A DNA stretch of 64,000 nucleotides, from assembly GCF_900230285.1 (NCBI RefSeq), contig NZ_OCNK01000001.1, positions 1,116,001 through 1,180,000 on the forward strand, given 5' to 3'. The stretch comes from Blastococcus haudaquaticus. Lineage in GTDB: Bacteria; Actinomycetota; Actinomycetes; Mycobacteriales; Geodermatophilaceae. Of this stretch, positions 5,148-44,412 are shown piece by piece. Position numbers and translations under genes: made by a program. The notes under the pieces were generated by a model. That model was not told the origin of the DNA, did not search any database, and saw only the letters and a program-made list of their open reading frames with translations. Within the stretch, counting starts at the first letter, position 1, and each line of letters starts with the position of its first letter.

Positions 5148-5174
5148 ACTAGAGAACGCCATACGGTGCTCGAC

Positions 5175-6368
5175 ATGGATCCCGTCCGGAACCCGTACGC
5201 GCCCGGCGCCGGCCAGCGACCCCCCGAGCTGGCCGGTCGGGACACCGAGCTCTCGGCCTTCGACGTGGTGCTGGAGCGGATCGCCCACGGCCGGCCGGAG
5301 CGCTCGCTCGTGCTGACCGGGCTGCGCGGCGTCGGCAAGACCGTGCTGCTCAACCAGCTGCGGTCGGCGGCGATCTCGCGCGGCTGGGGCACCGGCAAGA
5401 TCGAGGCGCGTCCCGAGCAGTCGCTGCGGCGGCCGGTCTCCTCCGCGCTGCACATGGCGCTGCGCGAGCTGGGGCCGCGCCACCGCGACCAGGGGTCGAT
5501 GGAGGAGGTCCTCGGCGTCGTCAAGGCCTTCGCGCAGCGGGTGAGCCCAGCCGACGCGAAGGTGCGGGACCGGTGGCAGCCCGGCATCGACGTCCCTGCG
5601 GCCACGGGGCGCGCCGACTCCGGCGACATGGAGATCGACCTCGTCGAGCTGCTCAGCGACGCGGCCGGGGTGGCCGCCGACATCGGCAGCGGCATCGCGC
5701 TGTTCATCGACGAGATGCAGGACGTCCAGCCCGACGACGTCTCGGCCATCTGCGCGGCCTGCCACGAGCTCTCCCAGCAGGGCGCGCCGCTGATCGTCGT
5801 GGGTGCGGGTCTCCCCCACCTGCCCGCCGTGCTGTCGGCGTCGAAGAGCTACTCCGAACGGCTTTTCCGGTACCTGCGCATCGACCGGCTGGAGCGCGAG
5901 GCCGCCGATCGCGCGCTGATCGCACCCGCCGAGCGGGAGGGGGTGGAGTTCGCGCAGGGCGCCCTGGACGCCCTGTACGAGGCCGCCGACGGCTACCCGT
6001 ACTTCGTGCAGGCCTACGGCAAGGTGACGTGGGACGTCGCCGCCTCCTCCCCCATCACCGCCGCCGACGTCGCGATGGCCGCGCCGGTCGCCGAGACCGA
6101 GCTCGCCGTCGGGTTCTTCGGCTCCCGCTACGACCGCGCGACCCCGGCCGAGCGCGAGTACATGCACGCCATGGCCGAGCTGGGCGGACCGGGCGGCGCG
6201 GCCGTGGCCACGTCGGAGGTGGCCGTCTCCCTCGGCCGGAAGCCCGCGTCCCTCTCCCCCGCGCGTGACTCGCTGATCAAGAAGGGCCTGGTCTACTCGG
6301 CCGAGCGCGGGCAGATCGCCTTCACCGTCCCGCACTTCGGCCGCTACCTCCTGCGCCACCCGGACTAG
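5175..6368 (+). CDS. orphan AAA/ORC1-like ATPase
   Basis: A 397-residue P-loop ATPase. Walker A is GLRGVGKT (about residue 45) and Walker B is IALFIDEMQD (about 175), followed by a sensor-1-like strand LIVVGAGLPHLP. The C-terminal ~90 residues resemble a winged helix (EYMHAMAELGG...SLGRKPASLSPARDSLIKKGLV). This is the layout of ORC1/CDC6-like or STAND-like ATPases found singly in actinobacterial genomes. I favour ATG 5175, which gives the conserved-looking MDPVRNPYAPGAGQRPPELAGR opening; GTG 5166 would add three residues. No clear Shine-Dalgarno precedes either codon, so a leaderless transcript is possible. The neighbours are unrelated, with no partner toxin, nuclease or sensor, so the role is unknown. 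A repeat copy begins directly after its stop codon. Confidence 0.8.
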   Translation: MDPVRNPYAPGAGQRPPELAGRDTELSAFDVVLERIAHGRPERSLVLTGLRGVGKTVLLNQLRSAAISRGWGTGKIEARPEQSLRRPVSSALHMALRELGPRHRDQGSMEEVLGVVKAFAQRVSPADAKVRDRWQPGIDVPAATGRADSGDMEIDLVELLSDAAGVAADIGSGIALFIDEMQDVQPDDVSAICAACHELSQQGAPLIVVGAGLPHLPAVLSASKSYSERLFRYLRIDRLEREAADRALIAPAEREGVEFAQGALDALYEAADGYPYFVQAYGKVTWDVAASSPITAADVAMAAPVAETELAVGFFGSRYDRATPAEREYMHAMAELGGPGGAAVATSEVAVSLGRKPASLSPARDSLIKKGLVYSAERGQIAFTVPHFGRYLLRHPD

Positions 6369-6430
6369 GGAAAGGACCCCGGTCCTCCTCCCCGCTCGCG
6401 AGCTCGCGGCGAGCCTCTGGACGGGGCCGG
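6369..6430 (+). repeat. AAAGGACCCC repeat, copy 1 (full length)
   Basis: Starts one base after the TAG of the AAA ATPase gene, reads GGAAAGGACCCCGGTCC at its head and ends GGACGGGGCC. Internally GCTCGC and GCGAGC can pair, and the outer head and tail (GGACCCC/GGACGGGGCC) are also partly self-complementary, so RNA from it should fold into a strong hairpin. The other copies are at 29996-30055, 33727-33781 (minus) and 44374-44402. It may act as the terminator of the gene before it. Confidence 0.8.
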
Positions 6431-23803: not shown

Positions 23804-23841
23804 CCGAGGGGCGCACGACCGGTAGGTCGTGCGCCCCTCGG
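23804..23841 (-). terminator. palindromic terminator of receptor 3
   Basis: CCGAGGGGCGCACGACC (23804-23820) pairs with GGTCGTGCGCCCCTCGG (23825-23841) around GGTA, a 17-bp stem 55 bp past the receptor-3 stop. Core and distance match the receptor-2 terminator. Confidence 0.85.
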
Positions 23842-23895
23842 GCCGTTCAGATGCTCACCCCGGGCCTGTGAGGAGTGGGGGAGCCGTGTCCGTGG

Positions 23896-25503
23896 TCAGT
23901 AGGTGAACCTGCCGACGGTGGTGCGCAGCTCCGCGGCCATCTGCGACAGCTCGTCCACGGCGAGCCGCGTCTGGGTCAGCGCCTGCGTGGTCGACTCCGC
24001 GGCCGAGGACACGCCGGTGATGTTCGCGGCGATCTCTCCGGTGCCACTGGCGGCCTCCTGGACCGAGCGGGACATCTCGCTCGTCGTCGCCGTCTGCTCC
24101 TCCACCGCGGAGGCGATGGTGGTCTGCCGGTCGGAGATCTGCGCGACGATCGCGGAGATCTCGTCGATGGCAGCGACCGCGGCGGTGGTGTCGCCCTGGA
24201 TGGCGAGCACGCGCTTGGCGATGTCCTCGGTGGCCTTCGCCGTCTCCTGGGCCAGCTCCTTGACCTCGTTGGCCACGACCGCGAAACCCTTGCCGGCCTC
24301 CCCGGCCCGGGCCGCCTCGATGGTGGCGTTGAGGGCCAGCAGGTTGGTCTGCTCGGCGATCGAGGTGATCACCTTGACGACGTTGCCGATCTCCGCCGAC
24401 GACTCACCCAGCTTGTCGACCGTGGCCTTGGTCGTCGCAGCAGCGGCGACCGCACGGTTGGCGACCTCGCTGGCCTCCGCGGCGTTGGAGGCGATCTCCC
24501 GGATGGAGGCCCCCATCTGCTCGGCACCGGCGGCGACGGTCTCGACGCTGCGGGAGACCTCCTCGGCCGCAGAGGCGACGACGCCACCCTGGGTGGAGGT
24601 CTCCTCGGCCGAGGCGGAGATCTGCGCGGAGCTGGCGCTCAGCTCCTCGGAGGAGGACGCGACGGCGTGCGCGGAGGAGGCGACACCGGCCAGGACCACA
24701 CGCAGGTTCTCCTGGGCAAGGTCCAGCGCGGCTGCCATCTGGCCGACCTCGTCCTTGGACACCACACCGGTCGCCTTGGTCAGGTCGCCGGCGGCGAGGG
24801 CCTCGAGCGACAGCTTCACCGCGCGAACGGGCCGGGTGATCGAGCGCATGATCACCCAGCTGACCAGGCCGATGACGGCCAGCGCCGCCATGGCGATGAG
24901 CAGGCTGATGGTTTGGGCGCGGGCGATCGCGTCGTCCAGCCTGACCTGGGCGGCGTCACTGTCGGCGGCGAGTGCATCCTTCGCCGTGCCGACGGCGCCG
25001 TCGGTCAGGTCGTTGGCGGTCTGGATGTCCTCCCACGCGGCGCGCGTCGCGGCCTGGTCGGCGACCGCCGAATTCACGAACGTGGAGATGGCGTCCATGT
25101 AGGCGACGTAACTGTCGGCCAGGCCGGCCACCGCGTCGGCGCTCGCGCCGGTCAGGGAGATGGGGGCCAGCTCGTCGAGCAGCGCTTGGGGGGTGGCGAT
25201 GTCGTCGGCCAGCTCGGTGAGCTGCTCGGCCGGGACGTCGCGGACGATCGACTTGAAGCCGTCGACCTTGAGCTCGCTGGCCCGCGTATCCAGCTGGAGC
25301 ACCAGCTCCTGGGCCTCGTTGAGGTTCTCGAGCTCGGCGTTGGCCTCGCGCACCGTGGCGTTGCCGATGAGCATCGAGGCGAGGACCCCGCCGAGGGCGA
25401 GCAAGACGACGGTCACGAGGAGACCGAACTTGACGGCGAGCGGACGGTCGGCGAACCAGCCGGCTCGCCGCCCGCGAGCGGGAGAGGGGGGAGAGGCGTT
25501 CAC
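23896..25503 (-). CDS. methyl-accepting chemotaxis protein 3 (4HB-HAMP-MCPsignal)
   Basis: A 535-residue receptor with [12 protein letters not shown] at the N-terminus, TM1 ~27-47 ([18 protein letters not shown]), sensor bundle ~48-190, TM2 ~192-212 ([20 protein letters not shown]), HAMP starting [17 protein letters not shown], and the conserved signalling hairpin. It ends TVGRFTY like receptor 2. The sensor domain ([35 protein letters not shown]) resembles 4HB sensors with heptad character. ATG 25503 has GAGGGAGAAATGG-rich sequence upstream only on the other strand; the start is taken as the first ATG giving the shared N-terminal motif. It is farthest from cheA and has an upstream inverted repeat (25546-25567). 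Confidence 0.95.
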
Positions 25504-28906: not shown

Positions 28907-30058
28907 GTGGGACCGCTGCAGGGCGTACGGGTCGTCGAGTTCGCGGGGCTGGGGCCGGGCCCGTTCTGCGGCATGCTGCTGGCCGACCTGGGCGCCGACG
29001 TCGTCCGCATCGACCGGCGGGGGAGCCGTGGCGGACTGATCGGCGCGCTCGGTGCCACCTCCCTGCTCGACCGCGGCAAGCGCTCGATCGCCCTGGACCT
29101 CAAGGACGCCGACGACCTGGCCGTCGTCCGGGCGCTGGTGGAGCGGGCCGACGTCCTCCTCGAGGGGTTCCGGCCCGGGGTCATGGAGCGCCTGGGCCTG
29201 GGACCGGACGAGCTGCTGGCCCTGAAGCCGTCGCTGGTCTACGGCCGGATGACCGGCTGGGGTCAGACCGGCCCGCTGGCGAGCTCGGCCGGGCACGACA
29301 TCGGCTACATCGCGCTCACCGGAGCCCTGGGGGCGTCCGGCCGGCCCGGCGAGCGCCCGGCGCCGCCGCTGAACCTGCTGGGCGACTTCGGCGGTGGGGG
29401 AGTGTTCCTCGCGCTCGGGGCCGTGGCGGCGCTGGTGCACGCGCGGGCCACGGGGGAGGGGCAGGTGGTGGACGCGGCGATCGTCGACGGGACCGCCGTC
29501 CTCACGACGATGATCCACGGGATGCTCGACGCCGGCGTCTGGACCGACCGGCGCGGCAGGAACCTGCTGGACACCGGTGCGCCGTTCTACGACGTGTACC
29601 GCTGCGCCGACGGGCAGTTCCTCGCGGTCGGGGCGCTGGAGGAGCAGTTCTACGCCGCGCTGCTCGACGGCCTGGGGCTGGCCGGCGACGAGTCGCTGCC
29701 CGACCGCAACGACCCGCGCCAGTGGGGTGCCCTCCGCGACCGGTTCACCGCGGCCTTCGCCGCCCGCACGCGCGACGAGTGGTGGACGGTCTTCGCCGGC
29801 ACGGACGCGTGCGTCGCGCCCGTCTGGTCACTGCTGGAGGCCACGCAGGACCAGCACAACCGGGAGCGCGGCGTGTTCACGGAGGTCGACGGCGTCGTCC
29901 AGCCTGACGTCGCACCCCGGTTCTCGGTCACTCCCGGCAGCGTCGGGTCGGTGCCGCAGCCCGGGCAGCACGACGCCGAGATCCGCGCCGAACTCGAGAA
30001 AGGACCCCGTCCTCCCCACCCCTCGCAAGCTCGGGGCGGGCCCCTGGACGGGGCCTAA
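28907..30058 (+). CDS. CaiB/BaiF-family CoA transferase / alpha-methylacyl-CoA racemase-like
   Basis: A 383-residue protein of the family III CoA-transferase fold. Residues expected for alpha-methylacyl-CoA racemases are present: GHDIGYIALTGAL (catalytic His) and LLGDFGGGG (catalytic Asp); N-terminal GLGPGPFCGMLLADLGADVVRI is the CoA-binding start. It probably epimerises 2-methylacyl-CoA esters or transfers CoA between acids; the partner substrate is unknown. GTG 28907 has GGGAGG seven bases upstream. The last ~20 residues (EKGPRPPHPSQARGGPLDGA) are encoded by repeat copy 2 and are not family sequence, so the native stop was lost or displaced. Its stop overlaps that of the convergent NGG synthetase gene. 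Confidence 0.9.
   Translation: MGPLQGVRVVEFAGLGPGPFCGMLLADLGADVVRIDRRGSRGGLIGALGATSLLDRGKRSIALDLKDADDLAVVRALVERADVLLEGFRPGVMERLGLGPDELLALKPSLVYGRMTGWGQTGPLASSAGHDIGYIALTGALGASGRPGERPAPPLNLLGDFGGGGVFLALGAVAALVHARATGEGQVVDAAIVDGTAVLTTMIHGMLDAGVWTDRRGRNLLDTGAPFYDVYRCADGQFLAVGALEEQFYAALLDGLGLAGDESLPDRNDPRQWGALRDRFTAAFAARTRDEWWTVFAGTDACVAPVWSLLEATQDQHNRERGVFTEVDGVVQPDVAPRFSVTPGSVGSVPQPGQHDAEIRAELEKGPRPPHPSQARGGPLDGA
29996..30055 (+). repeat. AAAGGACCCC repeat, copy 2, inside the CoA-transferase reading frame
   Basis: GAGAAAGGACCCCGTCCTCC at the head and CCCCTGGACGGGGCC at the tail match copy 1 over nearly the full length. Here it is translated, ending in TAA just past the repeat. The far edge also supplies a base of the convergent gene's TAG. 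Confidence 0.85.
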
Positions 30059-31815
30059 CGGCGGCGGGTCTCGGGGAAGAGCAGGTCGACGAAGCGCTCG
30101 GCGACCGGCTGCGGCTCGTGGTTGGCCAGCCCCGGGCGTTCGTTGGCCTCGATGAACACGTAGTCCGGCCCGTCCACCGCCGGCACGAGGAAGTCGATGC
30201 CCGTGACCGGGATCCCCAGCGCCTCGGCGGCACGCACGGCCGCCTCGGCGATCGTGGGATGCAGGCGGGCGGTGACGTCCTCGATGGTGCCCCCGGTGTG
30301 CAGGTTCGCCGTCCGCCGCACCGGGACGCGTTCCCCGTTCGGCGGGACGTCGTCCATCGCGTAGCCCGCCTCGGCCACCACCTCGGCGGTCGTGTCGTCC
30401 AGCGGGATGCTGGACTCGCCGCCGGTGGCCCGCTCCCGGCGCCGGCTGGTCGCCTTCACCAGGTCCACGACCGGGTTGCGCCCGTCGCCGACCACCTCGG
30501 CCGGACGCCGGACCGCCGCCGCGACGACCTGCCGGTCGATCACGACCACCCGCAGGTCGTCGCCCTGGACCAGCTCCTCGACGAGCACGTCCGGGCAGAA
30601 CTGCAGCGCGTACGCGACGGCCTTCCCCAGTCCGGCCTCGTCCGTGACGCCCACGGTGATGCCGCGCCCCTGCTCGCCTCGCGCCGGCTTGACCACCACC
30701 GCACCGACGTCCCGCAGCAGGGCCGCCGCGTCCTCGAGGTCGCCGTCGCCCGCGAGCGCCCCGCGGGCCACCCGGACGCCGGCTCGCCGCATGATCCGCC
30801 GGGTGACGCGCTTGTCGTCGCAGCGGCTCATCGCCACTGCGCTGGTGAACTCCGACAGCGACTCGCGGGTGAGGATCGTGCGCCCGCCGACCGTCAGCCG
30901 CATCTCCCCCCAGTCCGCGTCGGTGACCTCGACGCGGATCCCCCGCCGCAACGCCTCCTCGGCGATGATCAGCGCGTAGGGGTTGAGCTTCTCCAGGCCC
31001 GGCGGCCGCGAGGCGAACAGCGCCGTGTTGATCGGGTTCTTGCGCTTGACGCAGACGGCGGGGACCCGCACGAAACCCAGCTTGCGGTAGAGCGTGATCG
31101 CCGGGGTGTTGTCGTGCATGACCGACAGGTCGAGGTAGGCCCGGCTGCGTCCGACGTAGCGCTCGACCAGGACACGAACGAGGGCCTCACCGGTCCCCGG
31201 CGGCGCGTCCTGCTTGTCCGCCACCAGGCACCACAGGCTGGTTCCCCCCTCGGGGTCCCCGAAGGCGAGCTCGTGGTCCACGCCGGTCACGGTGCCGACG
31301 ATCTTCCCGGTGCGGGTGTCCTCGGCGACGAGGTAGGTGAAGGTACGGGTGCGGTGGTTGGCCCACATCGTCGCGGCATCCGCGGCGACCATGCCGTTGC
31401 GGGCGTAGAGATCGTTGATCTGGTCCATCTCCGCCGCCGACGTCACCGTCCGCACGAACACGCCCCGGATCACGTCGGGGCGGGGGCGGTAGCGGTGCAG
31501 GTCGAGCCGGTAGGTCAGCGACGGGTCGATGAACAGCTCGTCGGGCGCCATCCCGACGAGCACCTGCGGGTCGCGCGGGTAGACGCAGATGTCGCGGCGC
31601 CCGGTCTCCTCACCGCGCAGGGCCGCCACGATGCCGCTGAGCTCGCGGAAGGTCTGGCCGAAGACCAGCTGACCCCAGCCGAGGTCGAGGACGACGTCGG
31701 TCCCCATGCCCTCGATCTCGTGCGCGGTCGGCTCGTGCCACGACCGGCTGGTCAGCGACGGGGCCGGCTGGCCGTGCTCGCGACGCCGGTGCCCGGCGAC
31801 GCGGAGCGGCGTCAC
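30055..31815 (-). CDS. ngg: N-acetylglutaminylglutamine synthetase (GNAT + ATP-grasp)
   Basis: A 586-residue two-domain protein. Residues ~100-270 form a GNAT acetyltransferase (VFVRTVTSAAEMDQINDLYARN... LDLSVMHDNTPAITLYRKLGFVRV). Residues ~290-580 form an ATP-grasp ligase (VVVKPARGEQGRGITVGV, LVEELVQGDDLRVVVID, GIDFLVPAVDGPDYVFIEANERPG). This fusion is the GNAT/ATP-grasp member of the osmoprotectant trio that makes N-acetylglutaminylglutamine amide (NAGGN). GTG 31815 is set by GGAGG six bases upstream. It follows the amidotransferase gene with a 24-bp gap. The third trio gene (M42-type hydrolase) is absent; a protease of a different family lies upstream. Confidence 0.9.
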   Translation of the reverse strand: MTPLRVAGHRRREHGQPAPSLTSRSWHEPTAHEIEGMGTDVVLDLGWGQLVFGQTFRELSGIVAALRGEETGRRDICVYPRDPQVLVGMAPDELFIDPSLTYRLDLHRYRPRPDVIRGVFVRTVTSAAEMDQINDLYARNGMVAADAATMWANHRTRTFTYLVAEDTRTGKIVGTVTGVDHELAFGDPEGGTSLWCLVADKQDAPPGTGEALVRVLVERYVGRSRAYLDLSVMHDNTPAITLYRKLGFVRVPAVCVKRKNPINTALFASRPPGLEKLNPYALIIAEEALRRGIRVEVTDADWGEMRLTVGGRTILTRESLSEFTSAVAMSRCDDKRVTRRIMRRAGVRVARGALAGDGDLEDAAALLRDVGAVVVKPARGEQGRGITVGVTDEAGLGKAVAYALQFCPDVLVEELVQGDDLRVVVIDRQVVAAAVRRPAEVVGDGRNPVVDLVKATSRRRERATGGESSIPLDDTTAEVVAEAGYAMDDVPPNGERVPVRRTANLHTGGTIEDVTARLHPTIAEAAVRAAEALGIPVTGIDFLVPAVDGPDYVFIEANERPGLANHEPQPVAERFVDLLFPETRRR

Positions 31816-31839
31816 CCGGACCTCCGCCGACCGCCGCTC

Positions 31840-33624
31840 TCAGACCGCATGACTCTGCAGCCACAGCTCGAGCAGCCCCAGCTGCCACAGCTTGTTGCCC
31901 CGCAGCGGCGTCAGCTCGCTGTTCGGGTCCGCGAGCAGGGCGTCCACGTACTCCGGGCGGAACAGCCCGCGGTCACGGGCCGCGTCCGACGCCAGGGCGT
32001 CGCGCACCAGGCCGAGCACCTTGCCCTCGAGGTGCGTGATCGCCGGCACCGGGAAGTAGCCCTTGGGCCGGTCGATGACCTCCGGCGGGATGATCCGTCG
32101 CCCGATCGCCTTGAGGATGCCCTTGCCCCCGTCGGCGAGCTTCAGCTCCGGCGGGCAGAGTGCGGCGAGCTCGACCAGGTCGTGGTCGAGGAACGGCACA
32201 CGGGCCTCCAGCCCCCACGCCATGGACATGTTGTCCACCCGCTTGACCGGGTCGTCGACGAGCATCACCTCGCTGTCCAGGCGCAGGGCGGCGTCGACCG
32301 CGGTCTCGGCCCCCGACCGTGACATGTGGTCGCGGACGAACGCCAGGCTCGGGTCCTCGGCGAGCGCGTACCGGTCGGAGACGACCGAGCGCAGCTGCGC
32401 GTGGTCGCGGTCGAAGAACGCCTTCGCGTACTTCTCCACGGCCTCCTCGCGGCCGACGCCCGCCAGCGGCGGGTACCAGTGGTAGCCGGCGAACACCTCG
32501 TCGGCGCCCTGGCCCGACTGGACGACCCGGATGGTCTCGCTCACCCGCTCGCTGAGCAGGTCGAACGCGACGACGTCGTGGCTGACCATCGGCTCGGCCA
32601 TGGCCCCGATGGCGTGCCCGAGCGCGGCCGACAGCTCGTCGGAGGTGACCCGGATCCGGTGGTGGTTCGTGCCGAAATGCTCGGCGATGACGTCGGAGTA
32701 GGCGAACTCGTCGCCCTCGCGGCCGCCGACGGACTCGAAGCCGATCGAGTACGTCGCCAGGTCGCGCTGCCCCTCCTGGGCCAGCAGGCCCACGATCAGG
32801 CTGGAGTCCAGGCCGCCGGAGAGCAGCACGCCGACGGGGATGTCGGAGACCAGGCGACGCCGGACGGCGACCCGGAGGGCCTCCTCGACGGCGTCCTCCC
32901 AGTCGCGGGCCGACCAGTTCGCGTGCTCGGGGCGGCGCTCGTAGGTGGCGTTCCAGTACCGCTCCTCGCGGCTGGTGCCGTCGGGCTCGATGATCCGCAG
33001 CGTGGCCGGCGGCAGCTTCCGGACGCCGTTGAGGATCGTGCGCGGCGCCGGGACGACGGCGTGCCAGGACAGGTAGTGGTGCAGCGCGACGGGGTCGATC
33101 GAGGTGTCGACATCGCCAGCCTTGAGCAGCGCCGGCAGGGTGGAGGCGAACCGCAGGCGCTTCCCGGGCGTCTCCGCGAGGTAGAGCGGCTTGATCCCGA
33201 GCCGGTCGCGGGCCATGACGGTCCGGCCGGTGTCCCGCTCGTGGATCACGAACGCGAACATGCCGTGCAGGTGCGAGACGACGTCGGGGCCCCAGTGGGC
33301 GTATCCCTTGAGGATCACCTCGGTGTCGCTGTGCGAGAAGAAGCGGTAGCCGTGGCCCTCGAGCTCGGCGCGCAGCTCCTGGTAGTCGTAGATGCAGCCG
33401 TTGAAGACCGCCGTCAGGCCGAGGTCGTTGTCCACCATCGGCTGGGAGCCGCAGGTGGAGAGGTCGATGACCGACAGCCGGCGGTGACCGAAAGCCACCC
33501 GCCCGTTGCTCCACGACCCCTGGCCGTCCGGGCCGCGGGGGACCAGGGACTCGACCATGCGGGCGACCGCGGTCGTGTCGGCCATGGACCCGTCGAACGT
33601 GATCTCGCCGCAGAGGCCGCACAT
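31840..33624 (-). CDS. asnO: asparagine-synthetase-like N-acetylglutaminylglutamine amidotransferase
   Basis: A 594-residue class II glutamine amidotransferase. Catalytic Cys2 (MCGLCGEITFDG) follows Met removal, and the glutaminase domain spans ~2-215 (LVPRGPDGQGS, VFNGCIYDYQELR). The synthetase domain has the PP-loop VLLSGGLDSSLIVGLLAQ and QSGQGADEVFAGYHW. It amidates the C-terminal carboxylate of N-acetylglutaminylglutamine in NAGGN synthesis; the co-transcribed GNAT/ATP-grasp gene downstream supports this over ordinary asparagine synthesis. Start ATG 33624 is required to expose Cys2; GGGAG lies 12 bases upstream. The promoter region (33625-33726) is short and shared with the 3' side of the subtilase gene. 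Confidence 0.9.
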   Translation of the reverse strand: MCGLCGEITFDGSMADTTAVARMVESLVPRGPDGQGSWSNGRVAFGHRRLSVIDLSTCGSQPMVDNDLGLTAVFNGCIYDYQELRAELEGHGYRFFSHSDTEVILKGYAHWGPDVVSHLHGMFAFVIHERDTGRTVMARDRLGIKPLYLAETPGKRLRFASTLPALLKAGDVDTSIDPVALHHYLSWHAVVPAPRTILNGVRKLPPATLRIIEPDGTSREERYWNATYERRPEHANWSARDWEDAVEEALRVAVRRRLVSDIPVGVLLSGGLDSSLIVGLLAQEGQRDLATYSIGFESVGGREGDEFAYSDVIAEHFGTNHHRIRVTSDELSAALGHAIGAMAEPMVSHDVVAFDLLSERVSETIRVVQSGQGADEVFAGYHWYPPLAGVGREEAVEKYAKAFFDRDHAQLRSVVSDRYALAEDPSLAFVRDHMSRSGAETAVDAALRLDSEVMLVDDPVKRVDNMSMAWGLEARVPFLDHDLVELAALCPPELKLADGGKGILKAIGRRIIPPEVIDRPKGYFPVPAITHLEGKVLGLVRDALASDAARDRGLFRPEYVDALLADPNSELTPLRGNKLWQLGLLELWLQSHAV

Positions 33625-33726
33625 GCCGAACGATCTAACTCCCCTCCGGGGCGGCCCGCGACGCGAGGTCGGCCCGGGGTGGCGCAGTTCACGCCCGCCC
33701 CGGGCCGCTGTTCCACGTGGAACCGG

Positions 33727-33781
33727 CCGGCCTGCAGGGGCCCGCCGCGAGCGTGCGAGTGGTGGGGGGCAGGGGGTCCTT
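33727..33781 (-). repeat. AAAGGACCCC repeat, copy 3 (minus strand)
   Basis: On the minus strand it reads AAGGACCCCCTGCCCC and continues through CTCGCACGCTCGCGGCGGGC to GGCCGG. It starts directly after the TAG of the subtilase gene with no spacer. The middle matches copies 1 and 2 closely; the tail (CTGCAGGCCGG) has diverged from CTGGACGGGGCC. Confidence 0.75.
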
Positions 33782-35266
33782 CTACAGCCGGGCCACCGCC
33801 GCGACGACGTCGACCAGGCCGGTGCCCTTGTCGTAGGACGTGGCGTAGTCCCCGACGGAGGTGTACGGCGCACCGTCGGTGAACCGGTGGGTGGTCGCCT
33901 TGAGCGCCGCCTCGATCTCGGCCGGGGTGGCCGACGGGTCGGCCTGGAAGAGCTGGGCGACGATGCCGGCGACGTGCGGGGCGGCCATCGACGTCCCGCT
34001 GATCGTGTTGAACGTGCCGACGTCGAGCAACCCCGGGCCGTGGCGCGGGTCCAGTCCGGTGGCGCAGATCGGCAGGTAGAGCCGGCAGGACGACGTGATG
34101 TTCTCGCCCGGTGCTGCGAGGTCCGGCCAGGTGGTGGGATCGGCGGCCGCGCCGCGGGAGGAGTACTCGCTGACGACGCCGTCCCGGGTGCCGCTGTCCT
34201 GGTCGAAGTAGGACGCGACCGAGAGGATGCCGCCGGTGGGGTCCTGGCCGGGCGGGTTGGTCAGCGACGCCGAGCCGTCGCCGCCGTCGTTGCCGGCGGC
34301 CCACACCGTGACGACGCCCTCGTCGGCCAGGGCGCGCTGCAGCTTCACCGTCGCCGAGTTCGGGTCGAACTCCCCGCCACCGGTGGGGCCGTAGGAGTTG
34401 TTGGTGACCTTGATCGGGGGGCAGACGTCGGCGGGAACCCCGGCGCCACAGGGCGCCTCATGGTTCTCCAGCACCCAGTTGAGCGCCGAGTCGGCCCCGA
34501 CGATCAGCAGCACCGCGCCGGTGGAGATGGACACGATGCTCGCGCCGGGTGCGGCGCCGGTGAGCTCCCCACCGTCGGCGAGCGACGTGGGCCGGCCGGC
34601 GACGATCCCGCTCACGTGCGTCCCGTGACCGCCGCCGGAGACGGTGTCGGTGTCCAGGGAGCCCGGGACGCGGAGCACGCAGTCGGTCGTGGGGTCGGAC
34701 TCGACGAGACAGACGCTCTTGAGGTTCGCCACCACCGCGCTGCTGCCGTCGGCGTCGCGGAAGTACGGGTGCGTCGGGTCGACACCCGAGTCGATGACCG
34801 CCACCGACACGCCGCTGCCGTCCAGCGCCCGGCCGTTCGCACCGGTGAGGGTCGAGACCGCCTCGGCTCCGCGGGTGGCGGCGTTGGAGGTCTCCTGCGC
34901 GAACGCGATCGGGGTGTTGCCCTCGAGGTAGGTGACGCCGGGCTCGGTCCGCGCGGACTCGATCTGGTCCGTGGTGCCGGACGCCACGACGACGCCGATC
35001 CGCTCGAACTCCGTCACCGCCGACATCCCGGTGGCCTCGACCGCGGCACGGGCGGCCGCGACGTCGGTGCCGTGCACCAGGACCGTCGTCGGGACGCCGC
35101 CGGGAAGCGTGCCGAGCTGCTCGGCCAGGAAGTCCTGGACCGGCGCGGGCGGCGGATCGGCCGGGGCTGCCTGGGCCGGGGCTGCGAGGACCGCCGCCGT
35201 GATGACGGACAGCCCTCCCGCGGCGAGGGTTCGACGCAGTCTCGTCGGGGACAACGACCGGTTCAT
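33782..35266 (-). CDS. secreted subtilisin-like serine protease (S8)
   Basis: A 494-residue exported protease. A Sec signal peptide ([18 protein letters not shown]... [14 protein letters not shown]) spans residues 1-~34 with an AQA cleavage site. An I9-type propeptide follows (~45-110, [21 protein letters not shown]). The S8 triad is complete: VAVIDSGVD (Asp), [14 protein letters not shown] (His) and [13 protein letters not shown] (Ser), with oxyanion region [13 protein letters not shown]. Several Cys pairs ([29 protein letters not shown]) suggest disulfides in the extracellular domain. ATG 35266 has GAGGAG six bases upstream, so the longer open frame to 35308 is excluded. Copy 3 of the repeat follows the stop directly. 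Substrate unknown. Confidence 0.93.
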
Positions 35267-35391
35267 CGGCACTCCTCGCGGGTCACAGCGGTGTGTGCGC
35301 TGTCCCAACGACGCGACCGGCCGCCGGTTACCCGTCGGTAGGGAGAACTTCCCGGCGGTTGGCTGCCGGCCGGGCGGGGCACGTGGCGCTC

Positions 35392-36384
35392 ATGCGCACA
35401 CGCGATCTGGGCAGCCTGACCGTTCCGGCCGAGGGCCTGGGTTGCATGGGGATGAGCGAGTTCTACGGCACCGGCGACCAGCAGGAGGCCGAGCGGACCA
35501 TCCACCGCGCCCTCGACCTGGGCGTCACGTTCCTCGACACCGCCGACATGTACGGGCCGTTCACCAACGAGCGGCTCGTCGGCCAGGCGATCGCCGGCCG
35601 GCGTGAGGAGGTGGTGCTGGCCACCAAGTTCGGCAACGAGCGGCGCGAGGACGGCAGCTTCGTCCGCATCAACGGGGAGCCCGACTACGTGCGCCGGGCC
35701 TGCGACGCCTCGCTCCAGCGGCTCGGTGTCGACGTCATCGACCTGTACTACCAGCACCGGGTGGACACCTCGGTCCCGATCGAGGACACCTGGGGTGCGC
35801 TCGGAGAGCTGGTGGCCGCCGGGAAAATCCGGTACGCCGGCATCTCGGAGGCCGCTCCCGAGACCATCCGCAGGGCGCATGCCGTGCAGGCGGTCACCGC
35901 GGTGCAGACGGAGTACTCGCTGTGGACCCGGGACCCGGAGGACGACGGGGTGCTGGCCACCTGCGCCGAACTGGGCATCGGCTTCGTCGCGTATTCACCG
36001 ATCGGCCGCGGGTTTCTCTCCGGCGAGATCCGGAGCATCGACGACCTGGCACCCGACGACTTCCGGCGCCGCAACCCGCGCTTCCAGGGCGCGGCCTTCG
36101 AGCAGAACCTGCAGCTGGTCGACCGGGTGCGGGAGATCGCCCGCGAGAAGGACGTCACCGCGAGCCAGCTCGCCCTGGCGTGGGTGATGGCGCAGAGCGA
36201 TGTCCCCGGCCATCCGCCGATCGTGCCGATCCCGGGTACCAAGCGGGTGCGATACCTGGAGGAGAACGCGGCGGCGGCCGACGTCGCGCTCACCGACGAG
36301 GACCTCGCCCGGCTCGACGAGGCGGCACCGCGGGGCGCTGCCGCCGGGGACCGCTACCCGGACATGTCCACGGTCCACCGCTGA
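35392..36384 (+). CDS. aldo/keto reductase
   Basis: A 330-residue TIM-barrel NADPH oxidoreductase of the AKR13/YakC-like group. Catalytic tetrad segments: [10 protein letters not shown] (Asp, Tyr), VVLATKFGN (Lys) and DLYYQHRVD (His). The NADPH-binding end is [17 protein letters not shown]. It reduces aldehydes or ketones; substrate unknown. ATG 35392 ([20 protein letters not shown]) gives the normal family N-terminus; a longer open frame from 35293 would add 33 unlikely residues. Divergent from the subtilase gene, 125 bp apart, and convergent with the siderophore ABC operon, 20 bp apart. Confidence 0.92.
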
Positions 36385-36404
36385 GGCACCCCGCGGCGTC
36401 CGGA

Positions 36405-37163
36405 TCAGCCGTAGTGGACGGCGACGGGCCGTCCGTCGATCTCGCGGACGTCGACGGCCGTGTCGTAGACGGCCTCCAGCACGCTGGGGCGCATGACGTC
36501 GCGCGCAGGCCCGTCCGCGACGACGCGGCCCTCGCGCATCGCGACGATGCGGTCGGCGTAGCTCGCCGCGGCGTTGATGTCGTGCAGCACGAGGACGACC
36601 CGCTTGCCGAGCTCGTCGGCCGTCCGGCGGATCAGCCGCAGGATCTCGGTCATGTGCCGCAGGTCCAGGTTGTTGAGCGGTTCGTCGAGCAGCACGTACT
36701 TGGTGTCCTGGGCCAGCACCATGGCGATGAAGGCCCGCTGGCGCTGCCCGCCCGAGAGCTCGTCGAGGAAGCGGCTCCGGAAGCCGTCGAGGTCGAGGTA
36801 GTCGATCGCGCGGTCGATGTGGTCGCGGTCCACTCCGGTGAGCCGGCCACGGGAGTGCGGGAACCGGCCGAACTCCACCAGGTCGTGGACGGTCAGGCGC
36901 GCCGCCACGTGGTTGTCCTGCCGCAGCACCGCGAGGACCTTCGCCAGCTCGCTCGACGGCGTCGTCGCCACGTCCATGCCGTCCACCGCCAGACGCCCGG
37001 CGTCGGGCCGGATCAGCCGGCCGACGAGGCCGAACAGCGTCGACTTCCCCGCCCCGTTCGGGCCGATGAGGGCGGTCACGCCCTCCGCGCCGAACTCGAT
37101 GGAGAGGTCGTCGACCACCGCCTGCCTGCCGTAGCGCTTGGTGACGTTCTCGAGCGCGATCAC
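36405..37163 (-). CDS. iron-siderophore ABC importer, ATP-binding subunit
   Basis: A 252-residue ABC ATPase: Walker A LIGPNGAGKSTLFGLVG, Q-loop VLRQDNHV, signature DELSGGQRQRAFIAM, Walker B YVLLDEPLNNLDL, switch His in VLHDINAAA. It is most like FepC/FecE/YclP ATPases. GTG 37163 overlaps the upstream permease stop by four bases. It is the last gene of a four-gene unit (binding protein, two permeases, ATPase) for Fe(III)-siderophore uptake and energises transport through the FecCD-type pair. The siderophore type cannot be told. Confidence 0.93.
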   Translation of the reverse strand: MIALENVTKRYGRQAVVDDLSIEFGAEGVTALIGPNGAGKSTLFGLVGRLIRPDAGRLAVDGMDVATTPSSELAKVLAVLRQDNHVAARLTVHDLVEFGRFPHSRGRLTGVDRDHIDRAIDYLDLDGFRSRFLDELSGGQRQRAFIAMVLAQDTKYVLLDEPLNNLDLRHMTEILRLIRRTADELGKRVVLVLHDINAAASYADRIVAMREGRVVADGPARDVMRPSVLEAVYDTAVDVREIDGRPVAVHYG

Positions 37164-38182
37164 CGCGCCCCCTTCCGCAGGACGAGGTACAGGAAGAACA
37201 GGCCGCCGGCGAAGTCGATCACCGTGGACAGCGTGCCGCCGAAGGAGAACACCCGCTCCAGCACCAGCTGGCCGCCGAGCAGGCAGACCACCCCGATGAG
37301 CACGGCGGCGGGCAGCGTCCACACGTGGCGGAAGGACCCGGCGTAGGAGTAGGCCAGGTTGGCGACGACGAGACCGAGGAACAGGATCGGCCCCACCAGC
37401 GCGGTCGAGGCGGCGATCATCACCGACACGGCCGCGAAGAGGGCCAGCACGACGCGCCGGTGGTCCACCCCGAGACCCACCGCGGCCGGCTCGCCCAGGG
37501 CGAGGACGTCGAGCGTGCGCAGCAGCGGCACGACGGCGGCCGTGGCGAGGACGACGAGCGTTCCGGTCAGCGCCAGCAGCGTCCCGTCGGGGCGGGTGAG
37601 GGAGGCGAACAGCGCGTCGGACAGCACCTGGAAGTCCAGCGGGTCGAGCATCCGCTGCATCCACTCGGCGAAGCTGCGGAAGAACGTGCCCAGCACGATG
37701 CCCACCAGCAGCATGAGGTGGATCGACCGCCGCCGGCCGCCGAAGAGCCAGGTGAAGAGCAGCACGCTGAAGGCCACCATCACGACGACCTGGACCAGCC
37801 ACAGGGCGAGGGCGTCGGCCGCGAGGAACGCCGCCGAGCCCGAGAAGAACACGAGGACCGTGGAGATCAGCACGTAGAACGCGTCGAACCCCATGATCGA
37901 CGGCGTGAGGATGCGGTTCTGCGTGATCGTCTGGAAGACCACCGTGGACACCCCGACCGCCGTGGCGACGACGAACATCGCCAGGACGGTGCGGCCGCGG
38001 ATCTCCAGCGCGAAGGCCAGCGAGCCGGGGACGCCGGTGAACAGGTAGGTCACGACGAGGGCCAGCACGACGGCGCCGAGCGCGGAGAGCCGGACCGCCG
38101 GCCGGGCCCACGATGCGGCGAGCCGGGTGCGGACAGCGCTCCCCGCGGGCGCGGCGGTCGTGGTGGCGGGGTCAGTGAGCAC
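37160..38182 (-). CDS. iron-siderophore ABC importer, permease 2 (FecCD type)
   Basis: A 340-residue membrane protein with about nine to ten hydrophobic segments. Family blocks: TQNRILTPSIMGFDAFYVLI, LGEPAAVGLGVDHRRVVLALF (the coupling-helix region that meets the ATPase) and LVGPILFLGLVVANLAYSYAG. The N-terminal ~35 residues are a cytoplasmic Ala/Thr/Pro tail. GTG 38182 (VLTDPATTTAAP) overlaps the end of permease 1 by 11 bases; the longer open frame runs back through that gene. Pairs with permease 1 as the heterodimeric channel. Confidence 0.9.
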   Translation of the reverse strand: MLTDPATTTAAPAGSAVRTRLAASWARPAVRLSALGAVVLALVVTYLFTGVPGSLAFALEIRGRTVLAMFVVATAVGVSTVVFQTITQNRILTPSIMGFDAFYVLISTVLVFFSGSAAFLAADALALWLVQVVVMVAFSVLLFTWLFGGRRRSIHLMLLVGIVLGTFFRSFAEWMQRMLDPLDFQVLSDALFASLTRPDGTLLALTGTLVVLATAAVVPLLRTLDVLALGEPAAVGLGVDHRRVVLALFAAVSVMIAASTALVGPILFLGLVVANLAYSYAGSFRHVWTLPAAVLIGVVCLLGGQLVLERVFSFGGTLSTVIDFAGGLFFLYLVLRKGAR

Positions 38183-39191
38183 GACTGCCGCTCCGCAGGA
38201 GGAGCCAGAGGAACAGGACGGCGCCGATGACGCCGACGACGACCGACAGCGGGATCTCGTAGGGGAAGCGCACGACGCGGGCGACGATGTCGCAGGCGAG
38301 CACGAAGACGGCACCGGTACCGGCGACCCACGGGATCGAGCGGCGGACGTTGTCGCCGATCACCAGGCTCACGACGTTCGGCACGACGAGCCCGAGGAAC
38401 GGGACGATCCCCGCGGTCACGAGCACTGCCGCGGTGATGACGGCGATGACCACCATGCCGACGGCGACGACCCGGCGGTAGTCCAGACCCAGGTTGGTCG
38501 CGAACTCCTCGCCGAGGCCGATGACGCTGAACCGGTCCGCGGCCACCCAGGCGACCACCACCATGAGGCCGGCGATCCACAGGAACTCGTACCGGCCCTG
38601 CATGACGGTGGCGAAGCTGCCCTGCGCCCACTGCCCGAGCGACTGGAGCAGGTCGAGCCGGTAGGCGAAGAAGGTCGTCACGGCCGCGACCACCCCGCCC
38701 AGCATGATGCCGACGAGGGGGACGAGCACGAGCTGACGCACCGGGACGAAGCGCACCACCCGCAGGAACACCCAGGTCCCGAACAGCCCGAAGGCCGCCG
38801 CGACGCCCATCTTCCCGACGACGGCCAGGCCCGGGAAGAAGACCATCGTCACCAGCATCCCGAGGGTCGCGAACTCGGTGACGCCGGTGGTCCCGGGTTC
38901 CACGAACTTGTTGCGCACCAGCATCTGCATGATCAGGCCGGCGATGCCCAGGGAGGCGCCGACGAGCAGCACCGCGACCGTGCGCGGGATCCGGCTGGCG
39001 ACGAGGAGGAAGGCCGCGTCGCTCTGCGACCCCCCGGCCAGCAGCGCGGCCGGGGACACGTCGGAGACGCCGACGAACAGGCTGGCGCCCGCGAGGGCCA
39101 CGAGGAGGACACCGACGAGCACCCCCACCCCCCTGCGGCGGGGCCGCTGAGGGACGGGGGTGCTCGTCGGGGAGCGGTCGAGCGCCGTCAC
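38172..39191 (-). CDS. iron-siderophore ABC importer, permease 1 (FecCD type)
   Basis: A 339-residue polytopic permease. Typical FecCD blocks: ASRIPRTVAVLLVGASLGIAGLIMQ, VRNKFVEPGTTGVTEFATLG, LGEEFATNLGLDYRRVVAVGM (coupling helix) and GIVPFLGLVVPNVVSLVIGDN. N-terminal Pro/Arg tail (STPVPQRPRRRG). GTG 39191 lies 37 bp after the binding-protein stop. The pair of different permeases downstream of one lipoprotein matches YclNO/YfiZ-type systems more than single-permease operons. Confidence 0.92.
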   Translation of the reverse strand: MTALDRSPTSTPVPQRPRRRGVGVLVGVLLVALAGASLFVGVSDVSPAALLAGGSQSDAAFLLVASRIPRTVAVLLVGASLGIAGLIMQMLVRNKFVEPGTTGVTEFATLGMLVTMVFFPGLAVVGKMGVAAAFGLFGTWVFLRVVRFVPVRQLVLVPLVGIMLGGVVAAVTTFFAYRLDLLQSLGQWAQGSFATVMQGRYEFLWIAGLMVVVAWVAADRFSVIGLGEEFATNLGLDYRRVVAVGMVVIAVITAAVLVTAGIVPFLGLVVPNVVSLVIGDNVRRSIPWVAGTGAVFVLACDIVARVVRFPYEIPLSVVVGVIGAVLFLWLLLRSGSRAH

Positions 39192-39228
39192 TGCTGCCAG
39201 GAGCGGCGTGCGGCCGGAGGCGCGTCGC

Positions 39229-40239
39229 TCACCCGGTGATCTGCAGGACGTCGTCGATCATGATCTGCGTGGTCTGGATGCCACCGAACACGACGTACCA
39301 GGCCACCGGGTCGAGGTAGACGATCTGGTCGTTCCGGTGGGCCGTCGTCTGCCGGACGATCTCGTTGTCGAGGACGGCCTCCGCCGCCTGGGCCCCCGCC
39401 TCCCCGGTCGCGGCGTCGCGGTCGACCACCCACAGGTAGTCGGGGTCGGTCTCGAGCAGGAACTCGAAGGAGACGGGCTCCCCGTGCGTGGCGGCCTCGA
39501 TGTCGTCGACGACCGGCTGCACGCCGAACGCGTCGTAGATCAGCCCGCCGCGGGCGCCGCGGGCGTCGGTGCCCTCGCCGGCCGGGGCCATGGCGCTGAG
39601 CTCGCCGCCGGAGACCATGAGACCCAGGCCGGTGCCGGCGTCGGCGGTGGCCGCGCGTGCCTGCTCGATGCCCTCCTGGACCTCGCTGACAGCGGCGGCC
39701 GCCTCGTCCTCGGTGCCCAGCACCTCACCCAGGAACGTGGCGTTGCGCTCGAGGGTCTCGGTGTACGAGCCGCGCAGGCTGAGGTCGACGGTCGGCGCGA
39801 TCTCGCTGAGGTCCTCGTACAGCGCGGAGGACCGGCCGCCGATGACGATCAGGTCCGGCTGCTGCGACTCGATCTCGATGACGTCGGCCTCGAACAGAGT
39901 CCCGGCGTTGAAGGCGTCGTCGGCCAGGTGCTCCCGCAGGTAGTCCGGCACCGAGTCCAGCGGGGCGCCCGCGACCTCGCCGCCGAGCGCACCGATCGTG
40001 TCGAGTGCGGCCAGGTCGAACACCACGATCCGCTCGGGGTCCTTCGGGACCTCGACGGTGGTCTCCTCGAACGCGGGTTCCTCGTCCTCGCCCGCGGTGT
40101 TGCGGTCCCACGTGAAGCTGACGGTGCCGCCCTCGTCGGCAGCGGCGTCCGCCGTGGCGTCCCCGCCGCACGCGGACAGGCCCAGGACGGCGGCGAGGGG
40201 CAGGGCGAGGGCCGCGAGCGGCCGGCGGGAGGTGCGCAT
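39229..40239 (-). CDS. iron-siderophore-binding lipoprotein
   Basis: A 336-residue surface lipoprotein: lipobox LGLSACGG with Cys24 acylation, then a Thr/Glu-rich linker and the class III periplasmic-binding fold (PERIVVFDLAALDTIGALGGEV... QQPDLIVIGGRSSALYEDLSEIAP... YLWVVDRDAATGE). This resembles YclQ/FatB-type receptors for catecholate siderophores. It is the first gene of the importer operon. ATG 40239 is 36 bp from a DtxR/IdeR-type box, so iron repression is expected. The C-terminal FGGIQTTQIMIDDVLQITG is typical of the fold. Confidence 0.93.
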   Translation of the reverse strand: MRTSRRPLAALALPLAAVLGLSACGGDATADAAADEGGTVSFTWDRNTAGEDEEPAFEETTVEVPKDPERIVVFDLAALDTIGALGGEVAGAPLDSVPDYLREHLADDAFNAGTLFEADVIEIESQQPDLIVIGGRSSALYEDLSEIAPTVDLSLRGSYTETLERNATFLGEVLGTEDEAAAAVSEVQEGIEQARAATADAGTGLGLMVSGGELSAMAPAGEGTDARGARGGLIYDAFGVQPVVDDIEAATHGEPVSFEFLLETDPDYLWVVDRDAATGEAGAQAAEAVLDNEIVRQTTAHRNDQIVYLDPVAWYVVFGGIQTTQIMIDDVLQITG

Positions 40240-40274
40240 GGTGCTCCTGACGAACGGTATGAGGTCACCCTTAC

Positions 40275-40293
40275 TTAGGCTTGGCTAACCTGC
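40275..40293. promoter_or_regulatory. DtxR/IdeR iron box upstream of the siderophore importer
   Basis: TTAGGCTTGGCTAACCTGC matches the IdeR/DtxR consensus TTAGGTTAGGCTAACCTAA at 15 of 19 positions, including both TTAGG and CTAACCT cores. It lies 36 bp upstream of the binding-protein ATG and should mediate repression when iron is plentiful. Confidence 0.8.
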
Positions 40294-40426
40294 CATACCG
40301 CTTCAGCCGCGCTTCCACCGGGTCGTGCGCGCCGTCCCCCGGGGCCGGGCCGGGGCGGACCGGGCGGCAGGATGTCGGCGTGGCAGTCGTCGTCCCGAGG
40401 GGACCCGCCCCGTCGGGGACGCACCG

Positions 40427-40792
40427 GTGACGCCGGCCCTGGTCGTGACGATCACGGTGGCTGCCGCGGCGGTGGCCGTCCTCGGCGTCCTGTCCACGTT
40501 GGCCCGGCGCCGCATCGGCCTCGTCCACCTGGTCGCCGTCGGCGTCCTGGAGGCCCTCCTGCTCCTCCAGACCGTGATCGCCGTCGTCGCCCTGGCCGGC
40601 GGTGAGCGGCCGGAGGACGTCCCGACCTTCCTCAGCTACCTGATCGGGGTCGCCCTGGTCCCGGTCGCCGGGACCCTGTGGGCGCGCGCCGAACGCACGC
40701 GCTGGGCCGGCACGGTGCTCGCCGTGGCCGGCGCCGTCGTCGGCGTCATGGTCTGGCGGCTGCTCCAGCTCTGGGAGGTCACCGGTGCGTGA
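40427..40792 (+). CDS. four-helix membrane protein of unknown function, first of pair
   Basis: A 121-residue protein that is nearly all membrane: hydrophobic segments ~3-22, ~34-55, ~66-83 and ~93-113. GTG 40427 (VTPALVVTITVAAAAVAVLG) puts the first helix at the N-terminus; the open frame from 40325 would add an arginine-rich stretch and is not used. It overlaps the next membrane-protein gene by eight bases, so the two are coupled. I recognise no family; topology suggests small actinobacterial integral membrane proteins of unknown role. It begins about 190 bp from the divergent iron importer, beyond the iron box. Confidence 0.7.
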   Translation: MTPALVVTITVAAAAVAVLGVLSTLARRRIGLVHLVAVGVLEALLLLQTVIAVVALAGGERPEDVPTFLSYLIGVALVPVAGTLWARAERTRWAGTVLAVAGAVVGVMVWRLLQLWEVTGA

Positions 40793-41243
40793 CGACCGGG
40801 GTCTGGGCGCCCCCGCCGAGCAGGGGGCGTCCGGTCCGGGCCGGGTCCTCGTGGCGGTCTACGGCACGTTCGCCCTGGCAGCCGGCGCTCGCGCGGCGGT
40901 GCAGCTGGCGACCCGCTTCGACGAGGCGCCCGTCGCCTACCTGCTGTCGGCGTTCGCGGCCGCCGTCTACGTCGTCGCCACCGTGGGCCTGGCTCGCGGC
41001 GCACGGGGCCGCCGCCTGGCGCTGATCGCCATCACCGTCGAGCTGGTCGGGGTGCTGGCCGTCGGGACGCTCTCCCTGGCCGATCCGGCCGCCTTCCCGG
41101 ACGAGACCGTCTGGTCGGCCTACGGGCGCGGCTACTACTTCGTCCCGCTCGTGCTGCCGGTTCTCGGGCTCCTCCTGCTCCGCCGCGGCCCGGCGGCTCA
41201 GAAGTCCCCGCCGAAGTCCCCACCGAAGTCGCCGCCTCCGTAG
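40785..41243 (+). CDS. four-helix membrane protein of unknown function, second of pair, with antisense-encoded Pro/Lys tail
   Basis: A 152-residue protein with hydrophobic segments ~22-40, ~50-70, ~77-97 and ~118-133. The tail is QKSPPKSPPKSPPP. That tail is read from the strand opposite the GGDF repeats of the convergent gene, so the two coding regions overlap by 46 bp at their 3' ends. GTG 40785 overlaps the first membrane gene. The tail is probably an accident of overlap, not a functional module, but it would be translated. No recognised family. Confidence 0.65.
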   Translation: MRDDRGLGAPAEQGASGPGRVLVAVYGTFALAAGARAAVQLATRFDEAPVAYLLSAFAAAVYVVATVGLARGARGRRLALIAITVELVGVLAVGTLSLADPAAFPDETVWSAYGRGYYFVPLVLPVLGLLLLRRGPAAQKSPPKSPPKSPPP

Positions 41244-41300
41244 TCCCCACCACCGAAGTCGCCGCCTGCGTAGTCCCCACCACCGAGGTCCCCACCGCCG
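41198..41300 (-). repeat. GGD[F/Y] coding repeat shared by two convergent genes
   Basis: Short G/C-rich units on the plus strand (CCGAAGTCCCCACC-like) encode GGDF/GGDY on the minus strand and KSPP on the plus strand for the first 46 bases. It is a coding microsatellite, not a CRISPR array, since there are no unique spacers. Confidence 0.7.
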
Positions 41301-41926: not shown

Positions 41927-42069
41927 GCTGATTCCTCTCGGCGGGACCGCGGCGGAGGGTCCGCGGCGGCCGCGGACGGGCGGTTCCCCGTGCCGCCCTC
42001 GGCCACACGTCCGCGGAGAATCGCAGGTCAGCCCTGAGACCGATCGATGGCACGCGGTTAGATGGTTCC

Positions 42070-44373: not shown

Positions 44374-44402
44374 GAAAGGACCCCACGTCCCCCACCCCTC
44401 GG
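44374..44402 (+). repeat. AAAGGACCCC repeat, copy 4 (truncated)
   Basis: GAAAGGACCCCACGTCCCCC then ACCCCTCGG, directly after the TGA of the LOV phosphatase gene. The right half found in other copies is missing; the convergent flavin reductase gene ends 11 bp away. Confidence 0.7.
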
Positions 44403-44412
44403 CGCCGTTCCA

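Follow-up and report, generated by a model that had tools for sequence, protein, structure and literature searches.

A family of hairpin repeats anchored behind stop codons in Geodermatophilaceae

Copies in the window and architecture of the hairpin

The window, i.e., the whole 64,000-nucleotide stretch of Blastococcus haudaquaticus DNA analysed here, carries several copies of a repeat of about 58 bp, an imperfect hairpin of the form RAAGGACCCC...GGGGCC (Table 1). Of the four copies claimed in the preliminary description, the first three are full and recognised by covariance model R1, while the fourth is a remnant that R1 misses in the window. Copies 1, 3 and 4 do start 0-2 nt past a stop codon (TAG-GG-AAAGG, TAG-AAGG and TGA-G-AAAGG, respectively), and each is oriented like the gene that has just ended, as initially read. 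Pfam, run on six window proteins, supports the host labels AAA_16, CoA_transf_3 and Peptidase_S8; the fourth host, described earlier as a LOV phosphatase, matches PAS/GAF/SpoIIE. The genes dnaA, dnaN, gnd, recF, gyrB, ssb, rpsR, rpsB and tsf are named by eye throughout, on the basis of translations and flanking sequence.

Table 1. Positions and gene contexts of the repeat copies in the 64-kb window
Feature	Position	Strand	Score	Context
Copy 1, full	6371..6428	+	63.9 bits	2 nt past the TAG of the AAA_16 ATPase gene (5166-6368)
Copy 2, full	29999..30055	+	73.2 bits	In-frame fusion to the 3′ end of the CoA-transferase III gene (28907-30058)
Copy 3, full	33725..33782	-	60.1 bits	Overlaps the last base of the subtilase-gene TAG (gene 33782-35266)
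Copy 4, internally deleted remnant	44375..44412	+		Between the convergent stops of 42211-44373 (PAS/GAF/SpoIIE) and 44413-44922 (flavin reductase)
Probable fifth copy, decayed	23841..23894	-	20.7 bits (E 0.0039 in the window search)	1 nt after the stop of minus-strand gene 23896-25416

The reading of copy 2 as an element that entered a coding end is borne out by comparison with relatives. Of the 11 relatives listed, 9 match the CoA transferase up to residue 363 of 383 and no further, so that the last 20 residues are encoded by copy 2, whose 3′ end also adjoins the stop of the convergent gene 30055-31815. Copy 4 has an intact counterpart in the relative G008 (locus L283), lying between the same two convergent stops, which identifies it as a real copy with an internal deletion; the same gene end has no copy in 15 other relatives. 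The two look like a single insertion of common ancestry, left to decay rather than maintained. Directly behind copy 3, at 33710-33723 on the minus strand, lies a separate palindrome, GTTCCACGTGGAAC, which is kept in several relatives that have no copy 3 and which resembles ParB parS sites.

The consensus unit comprises, in order, RAAGGACCCC, a variable arm, CCCC-ACC, the apex CTCGCNNGCTCG, GGCGGG, CCCTG, the matching arm and GGGGCC. It folds into an 11-pair outer stem with a bulged A and additional inner stems. In one subtype, many copies carry a tail of about 16 nt, GTTCCAGCACGTCACC, which holds ACGTCAC about 9 nt from the stem; this tail moves with the element and is missing at empty sites. 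Head-to-tail arrays, in which hairpins without the AAGGACC head directly follow a full copy, occur at L160, L211, L229 and other loci of named species. The head of the element, (A)GAAAGGA, as at window positions 6369-6375, stands right behind the stop and resembles the complement of the 16S rRNA 3′ tail, i.e., a Shine-Dalgarno-like stretch.

Pairing was analysed in 126 copies (123 distinct rows), in an alignment that was fitted to the model and so favours its own structure: 94.5% of cells are paired, both-sided changes occur at 13 of 18 pairs, and covariation reaches 0.291, versus 0.089 after shuffling and no more than 0.066 when partners are slid. Selection on a sense-strand RNA should tolerate G-U over A-C cells. 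G-U cells are in fact outnumbered, by 16 to 32 of 1369 cells in a 79-copy set and by 21 to 61 of 2174 in the 126-copy set, a low G-U count for which the 73% G+C genome could partly account. A single loop-adjacent column supplies 10 and 25 of these A-C cells, respectively; when it is left out of the 79-copy set, G-U and A-C cells number 8 and 15 in the 55 copies that lie tight to a stop and 7 and 6 in the other 24. Because no G-U excess is seen, stem pairing looks as if it were maintained at the DNA level, whether because a DNA hairpin is under selection or because one arm corrects the other.

Size, range and placement of the family

R1 was built from 8 copies of near-equal length, aligned out of 20 that had been read with a first pattern. 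The genomic profile count proposed in the preliminary description yields at least 150 matches in the 4.51-Mb genome of the window, all with E below 1e-3; in the 1.26 Mb of contig C2 that were scanned in full, 79 copies are found at E ≤ 0.01, from which a genome-wide total of about 280 is extrapolated. This copy number is beyond chance, as the genome contains AAAGGACCCC 24 times and the reversed control 0 times. Across 61 genomes, surveyed with stricter filters than the window genome, the repeat is present in 32 of 37 Geodermatophilaceae, a family of actinobacteria from soil and stone, and in 0 of 24 genomes of sister families of the same order. Counts among the 32 carriers range from 1 (G015) and 5 (G018), through a group at 26-31 and the remainder at 44 and above, to at least about 90, the value given to all counts above that level. 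G015 belongs to the window's own genus and has a single match at E ≤ 0.001, reflecting either the loss of nearly all copies or a consensus that has shifted; in the genus's other 15 genomes the count runs from 28 to at least about 90. The DnaN of the five family genomes without the repeat is 67-72% identical to that of the window genome.

The exact pattern is found in at least 113 stretches of GTDB species genomes; the 80 contigs listed belong to Geodermatophilus, Blastococcus, Modestobacter, Trujillonella, "Geodermatophilaceae bacterium" and one MAG labelled Frankiales. Viral spread was rejected as an explanation, since the exact pattern is missing from viral_contigs. None of the 4227 Rfam models matches the 64-kb window at gathering score, and at E ≤ 1 four 3-kb loci give a single snoRNA match, located away from the element.

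Placement was assessed against 1172 genes called in the 1.26 Mb with a simple home-made codon-usage gene finder. Plotting distance and strand relative to stop codons, as had been proposed, reveals strong clustering: 55 of the 79 copies are tight, that is, start between -4 and +3 nt from the end of a same-strand stop, whereas 2000 runs of random intergenic placement give a mean of 1.7 and a maximum of 7. Among the 24 that are not tight (13 minus, 11 plus, hence no strand bias), 12 have a stop on the opposite strand 0-30 nt behind their 3′ end, bringing the total to 67 of 79, and 12 fit neither arrangement. Between same-direction genes there are 36 forward and 15 reverse copies; 24 copies lie between convergent and 4 between divergent genes. 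Forward copies are mostly within a few nucleotides of the preceding gene's stop codon or overlap it, and for reverse copies the distance behind a stop is 0-28 nt in most cases.

The distance itself is less fixed than first described: the tight clustering stands, but the gap from the stop to the stem GG varies over 0-2 or 4-6 nt and is almost never 3. In the 55 tight copies it is -1 (1 copy), 0 (5), 1 (5), 2 (8), 3 (0), 4 (29), 5 (6) or 6 (1), the gap-4 copies all following TGA and the gap-5 copies all following TAG or TAA. At 80 loci of named species, 71 of 126 copies are tight, with gaps of 0 (5), 1 (12), 2 (4), 4 (43) and 5 (7); of the remaining 55, many sit within or next to another copy. 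Tight copies show an excess of TAA (8 of 55, versus 36 of 1172 genes), consistent with the RAA start of the element supplying the last bases of some stop codons.

Simple DNA targets were considered and rejected. TGA as a plain target is at odds with the 2230 non-stop intergenic TGA (both strands) that stand beside 992 TGA stops in the 1.26 Mb, and bare CTGA with the 684 non-stop intergenic occurrences beside 619 at stops. TGA occurs at the preferred offset in 0 of 24 non-tight copies. A C nonetheless precedes TGA at 66 of 71 copies, versus 619 of 992 stops (Fisher p 1.2e-8), and G is found at -3 in 142 of 203 copies (2 of 205 being left out for lack of flank). CTAG stands at the TAG-stop offset in 3 of the 24 non-tight copies, which indicates that local sequence preference contributes away from stops too. 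TGA or CTGA alone thus leaves stop anchoring unexplained, although a preference in the local sequence can be seen.

Filled and empty orthologous sites and the search for a motor

Orthologous gene ends were compared in the dnaA-gyrA region of 33 family relatives and 2 other genomes, and in the region of copies 2-4 of 20 relatives. Ends with less than 60% identity or with less than 130 nt following were left out, giving 215 gene ends of nine types, window genome included, which come from related genomes and are therefore non-independent. The element is present at 51 of the 215 (38 forward, 13 reverse). Filled ends number 8 of 34 for dnaA, 10 of 35 for dnaN, 15 of 35 for gnd, 13 of 27 for gyrB, 2 of 16 for the subtilase gene, 1 of 17 for the SpoIIE gene, 1 of 18 for the flavin-reductase gene, 1 of 21 for the gene at 30055 and 0 of 12 for the CoA-transferase gene; the SpoIIE and flavin-reductase matches are one copy viewed from both sides. 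Among the 38 forward copies, 35 start between -1 and +3 nt from the stop; two of the others (L122, L125) are nested in a tight copy and one starts at +25. The reverse copies at these ends are 1-28 nt behind the stop.

The same end is thus filled or empty depending on the genome, and filled in either orientation. The gyrB protein ends in LDV in filled and empty genomes alike, and copies of both subtypes occur at the gnd and gyrB ends. At the subtilase end, the window copy and the G006 copy have different flanks, so that they are probably separate events as judged from their sequences, and G013 (L278) is empty. Some copies are also nested within the loop or an arm of another one, as at L122 and L125 and, read by eye in the loci of named species, at L153, L155, L165, L175, L181 and L192. 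Filled and empty sites, both orientations, nested copies and the extreme clustering at stops all speak for one of the two readings offered in the preliminary description, that of a mobile repeat favouring gene 3′ ends. No target duplication is visible at the filled/empty pairs read by eye, none of which is recent; one genome per species was sampled, and accordingly no fresh insertion is seen.

The targeting idea had been expected to fail if homologous genes in related species all ended in unrelated hairpins at the same place. This is partly the case, as palindromes of unrelated sequence stand at the same junctions in some relatives, a pattern that a functional niche would fit as well. It suggests that other palindrome families or terminators share the gene-end niche. 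Such short palindromes (e.g., TTTATGGCCATAAA, AAGTGGCCACTT, CATAGGTACCTATG) are often seen at element-free gnd/recF junctions (L119, L124, L127, L137, L138) and at element-free junctions corresponding to window position ~30058 (L266, L269, L276, L278, L285).

The RAYT-type transposase suggested earlier finds no support: PF01797 (Y1_Tnp) is detected in 0 of 37 family genomes, while it is positive in 3 of 24 non-family genomes and in the E. coli control. Two other candidate motors were rejected. RVT_1 occurs in 14 of 37 family genomes and is missing from many high-copy genomes; IS110 (PF02371) is patchy and missing from the window genome and from high-copy G002, G007, G024, G029 and G033. The Y1, RVT_1 and IS110 results show no more than that none of these enzymes is a general feature of present-day family genomes, and the motor of the repeat may have been lost.

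Nature of the family and origin of stop anchoring

We consider it likely that the repeat is a non-autonomous, REP/MITE-like mobile palindrome family of Geodermatophilaceae, untagged, stop-anchored and mobilised in trans. A trans-acting enzyme other than a present-day Y1/RAYT protein would copy or move the element, probably as a folded DNA hairpin, and arm correction at the DNA level or selection would keep the arms paired. The favoured insertion point would lie in the few bases that follow a stop, C-TGA-N being the commonest context; since no ORF is broken there, copies would be tolerated. In mRNA, such a copy would form a strong hairpin right behind the stop, and any influence on 3′-end stability, or on how transcripts terminate between convergent genes, would be a secondary matter. 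Counted against this reading are the missing motor, the lack of a target duplication at the pairs read, and the 24 of 79 copies that are not tight. Stop anchoring itself is most likely the product of insertion preference plus tolerance, the recurrent use of the same stop pointing to the former.

It is possible, though in our judgement somewhat doubtful, that anchoring is pure selection, in which insertion is random and only copies directly behind stops survive purging. The genome is compact, and convergent sites often have almost no other spacer. Moreover, tight copies occupy 0 of 33 same-direction junctions with a negative residual gap, a class that makes up 209 of 789 such junctions overall; a copy there would break a gene, so its absence fits purging, while the 0-29 residual-gap class is even (6 of 33 versus 136 of 789). 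Purging does not readily explain why six tight copies adjoin the stop despite 255-938 nt of downstream gap, nor why tightness shows no trend with bit score (19 of 26, 18 of 26 and 18 of 27), a rough proxy for age. The enrichment of C before TGA likewise suggests a sequence preference at insertion. An unlikely reading is that integration is directed to translation stops as such, the machinery sensing the stop via mRNA, the terminating ribosome or DNA exposed behind the stop. The RAA leader, which rebuilds TAA, TGA or TAG when the element lands inside a stop, would then be an adaptation. If true, this would be, to our knowledge, the first mobile DNA known to have the stop codon as its target.

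The other reading initially offered, a terminator cassette of conserved sequence ending transcripts just behind the stop, and in both directions between convergent genes, is improbable as the main nature of the repeat. Like intrinsic terminators, the repeat is a GC-rich hairpin behind stops, found also between convergent genes (24 of 79 copies, versus 4 between divergent pairs), and other palindromes occupy the same junctions in some relatives. Element-free orthologous ends also fold better than random gene ends, with a mean z of -1.24 versus -0.38 and a median of -0.61 versus 0.09 across non-independent sites; z falls below -2 at a fraction of 0.26 versus 0.15, a modest excess, and element-bearing ends score -1.20. 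Unlike intrinsic terminators, the repeat is mobile, has a conserved sequence and has no T-run or U-tract in the flanks read, and a terminator scan of 29500-45000 leaves copies 2-4 unmarked. It also lies between same-direction core genes, by eye rpsB-tsf, ssb-rpsR and dnaN-gnd-recF, and several copies are followed by a separate hairpin, again by eye. Its patchy presence at orthologous ends and the lack of a G-U excess argue in the same direction.

E. coli REPs near stops stall ribosomes. A functional translation-end element, kept because its hairpin delays ribosomes at termination or shields the 3′ end of the mRNA, would accord with the excess of forward over reverse copies between same-direction genes, with the strong covariation and with an exact spacing that falls within the footprint of a terminating ribosome. 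We regard it as quite improbable, given that A-C outnumber G-U cells in tight copies even with the loop-adjacent column left out, that copies such as copy 4 decay and that most orthologous ends have no copy. A classical RAYT-mobilised REP family is very improbable: its copy number, its palindromic shape and its position at gene ends are reminiscent of the REPs portrayed in PMC3733652, but PF01797 is absent from the 37 family genomes and a GTAG (YTAG) end from the consensus ends of 20 aligned copies.

The preferred reading, a trans-mobilised REP/MITE-like family, can be set against known systems. In a broad sense the repeat is a REP, being dispersed, palindromic, extragenic and present in hundreds of copies (79 in 1.26 Mb, mostly intergenic); it works like a REP, yet fails RAYT-REP tests. 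PMC3733652 places many REPs less than 20 bp from ORF 3′ ends, GTAG termini often supplying the TAG stop, so the statement that a fixed distance to the stop is unusual for REPs needs softening. REP doublets are described as randomly spread over extragenic space in PMC3116915. PMC3733652 distinguishes GTAG REPs, which are associated with RAYTs, from CGTC REPs, which have no dedicated transposase, most lying near ORF 3′ ends, and its phylum lists for the two do not name Actinobacteria. From these descriptions, GTAG REPs and REPINs are likewise short, GC-rich and palindromic, number in the hundreds and mostly follow ORFs, whereas the present family has no GTAG tag or Y1/RAYT, forms a longer two-part hairpin and is tight to the stop rather than merely near it. 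CGTC REPs share the lack of a dedicated transposase, the placement at gene 3′ ends and a conserved unpaired end (PMC3733652), but their stems of 8-9 bp and loops of 4-5 nt differ from the 11-pair outer stem and inner stems found here. Their CGTC tag adjoins the stem directly, and the ACGTCAC of the tail described above, about 9 nt away from the stem, may or may not be related to it.

The same paper names untagged REP-like families in M. tuberculosis, D. radiodurans, Bordetella, Brucella and Cyanobacteria, so that untagged REP-like repeats as such are not new; likened by description only, these are palindromes without terminal tags, one of them actinobacterial. With MITEs, the repeat shares small size, non-autonomy, dispersal and inverted-repeat ends; no target duplication was read at the filled/empty pairs compared by eye, and no parent transposon emerged in the present analysis. 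Among the matches listed in a literature search, with most subscription papers outside its scope, no title or abstract opening describes the present repeat.

The family adds to the actinobacteria a large set of palindromes, mobile repeats placed at stop codons with near-single-base accuracy in many species. It offers a natural system in which to ask whether such repeats owe their place at stops to aim, to selection or to mere tolerance, and by what means REP-like elements without a transposase are moved. The repeat also shapes the 3′ ends of core genes (by eye dnaA, dnaN, gnd and gyrB) and, in one gene of the window, the CoA transferase, it adds coding sequence.
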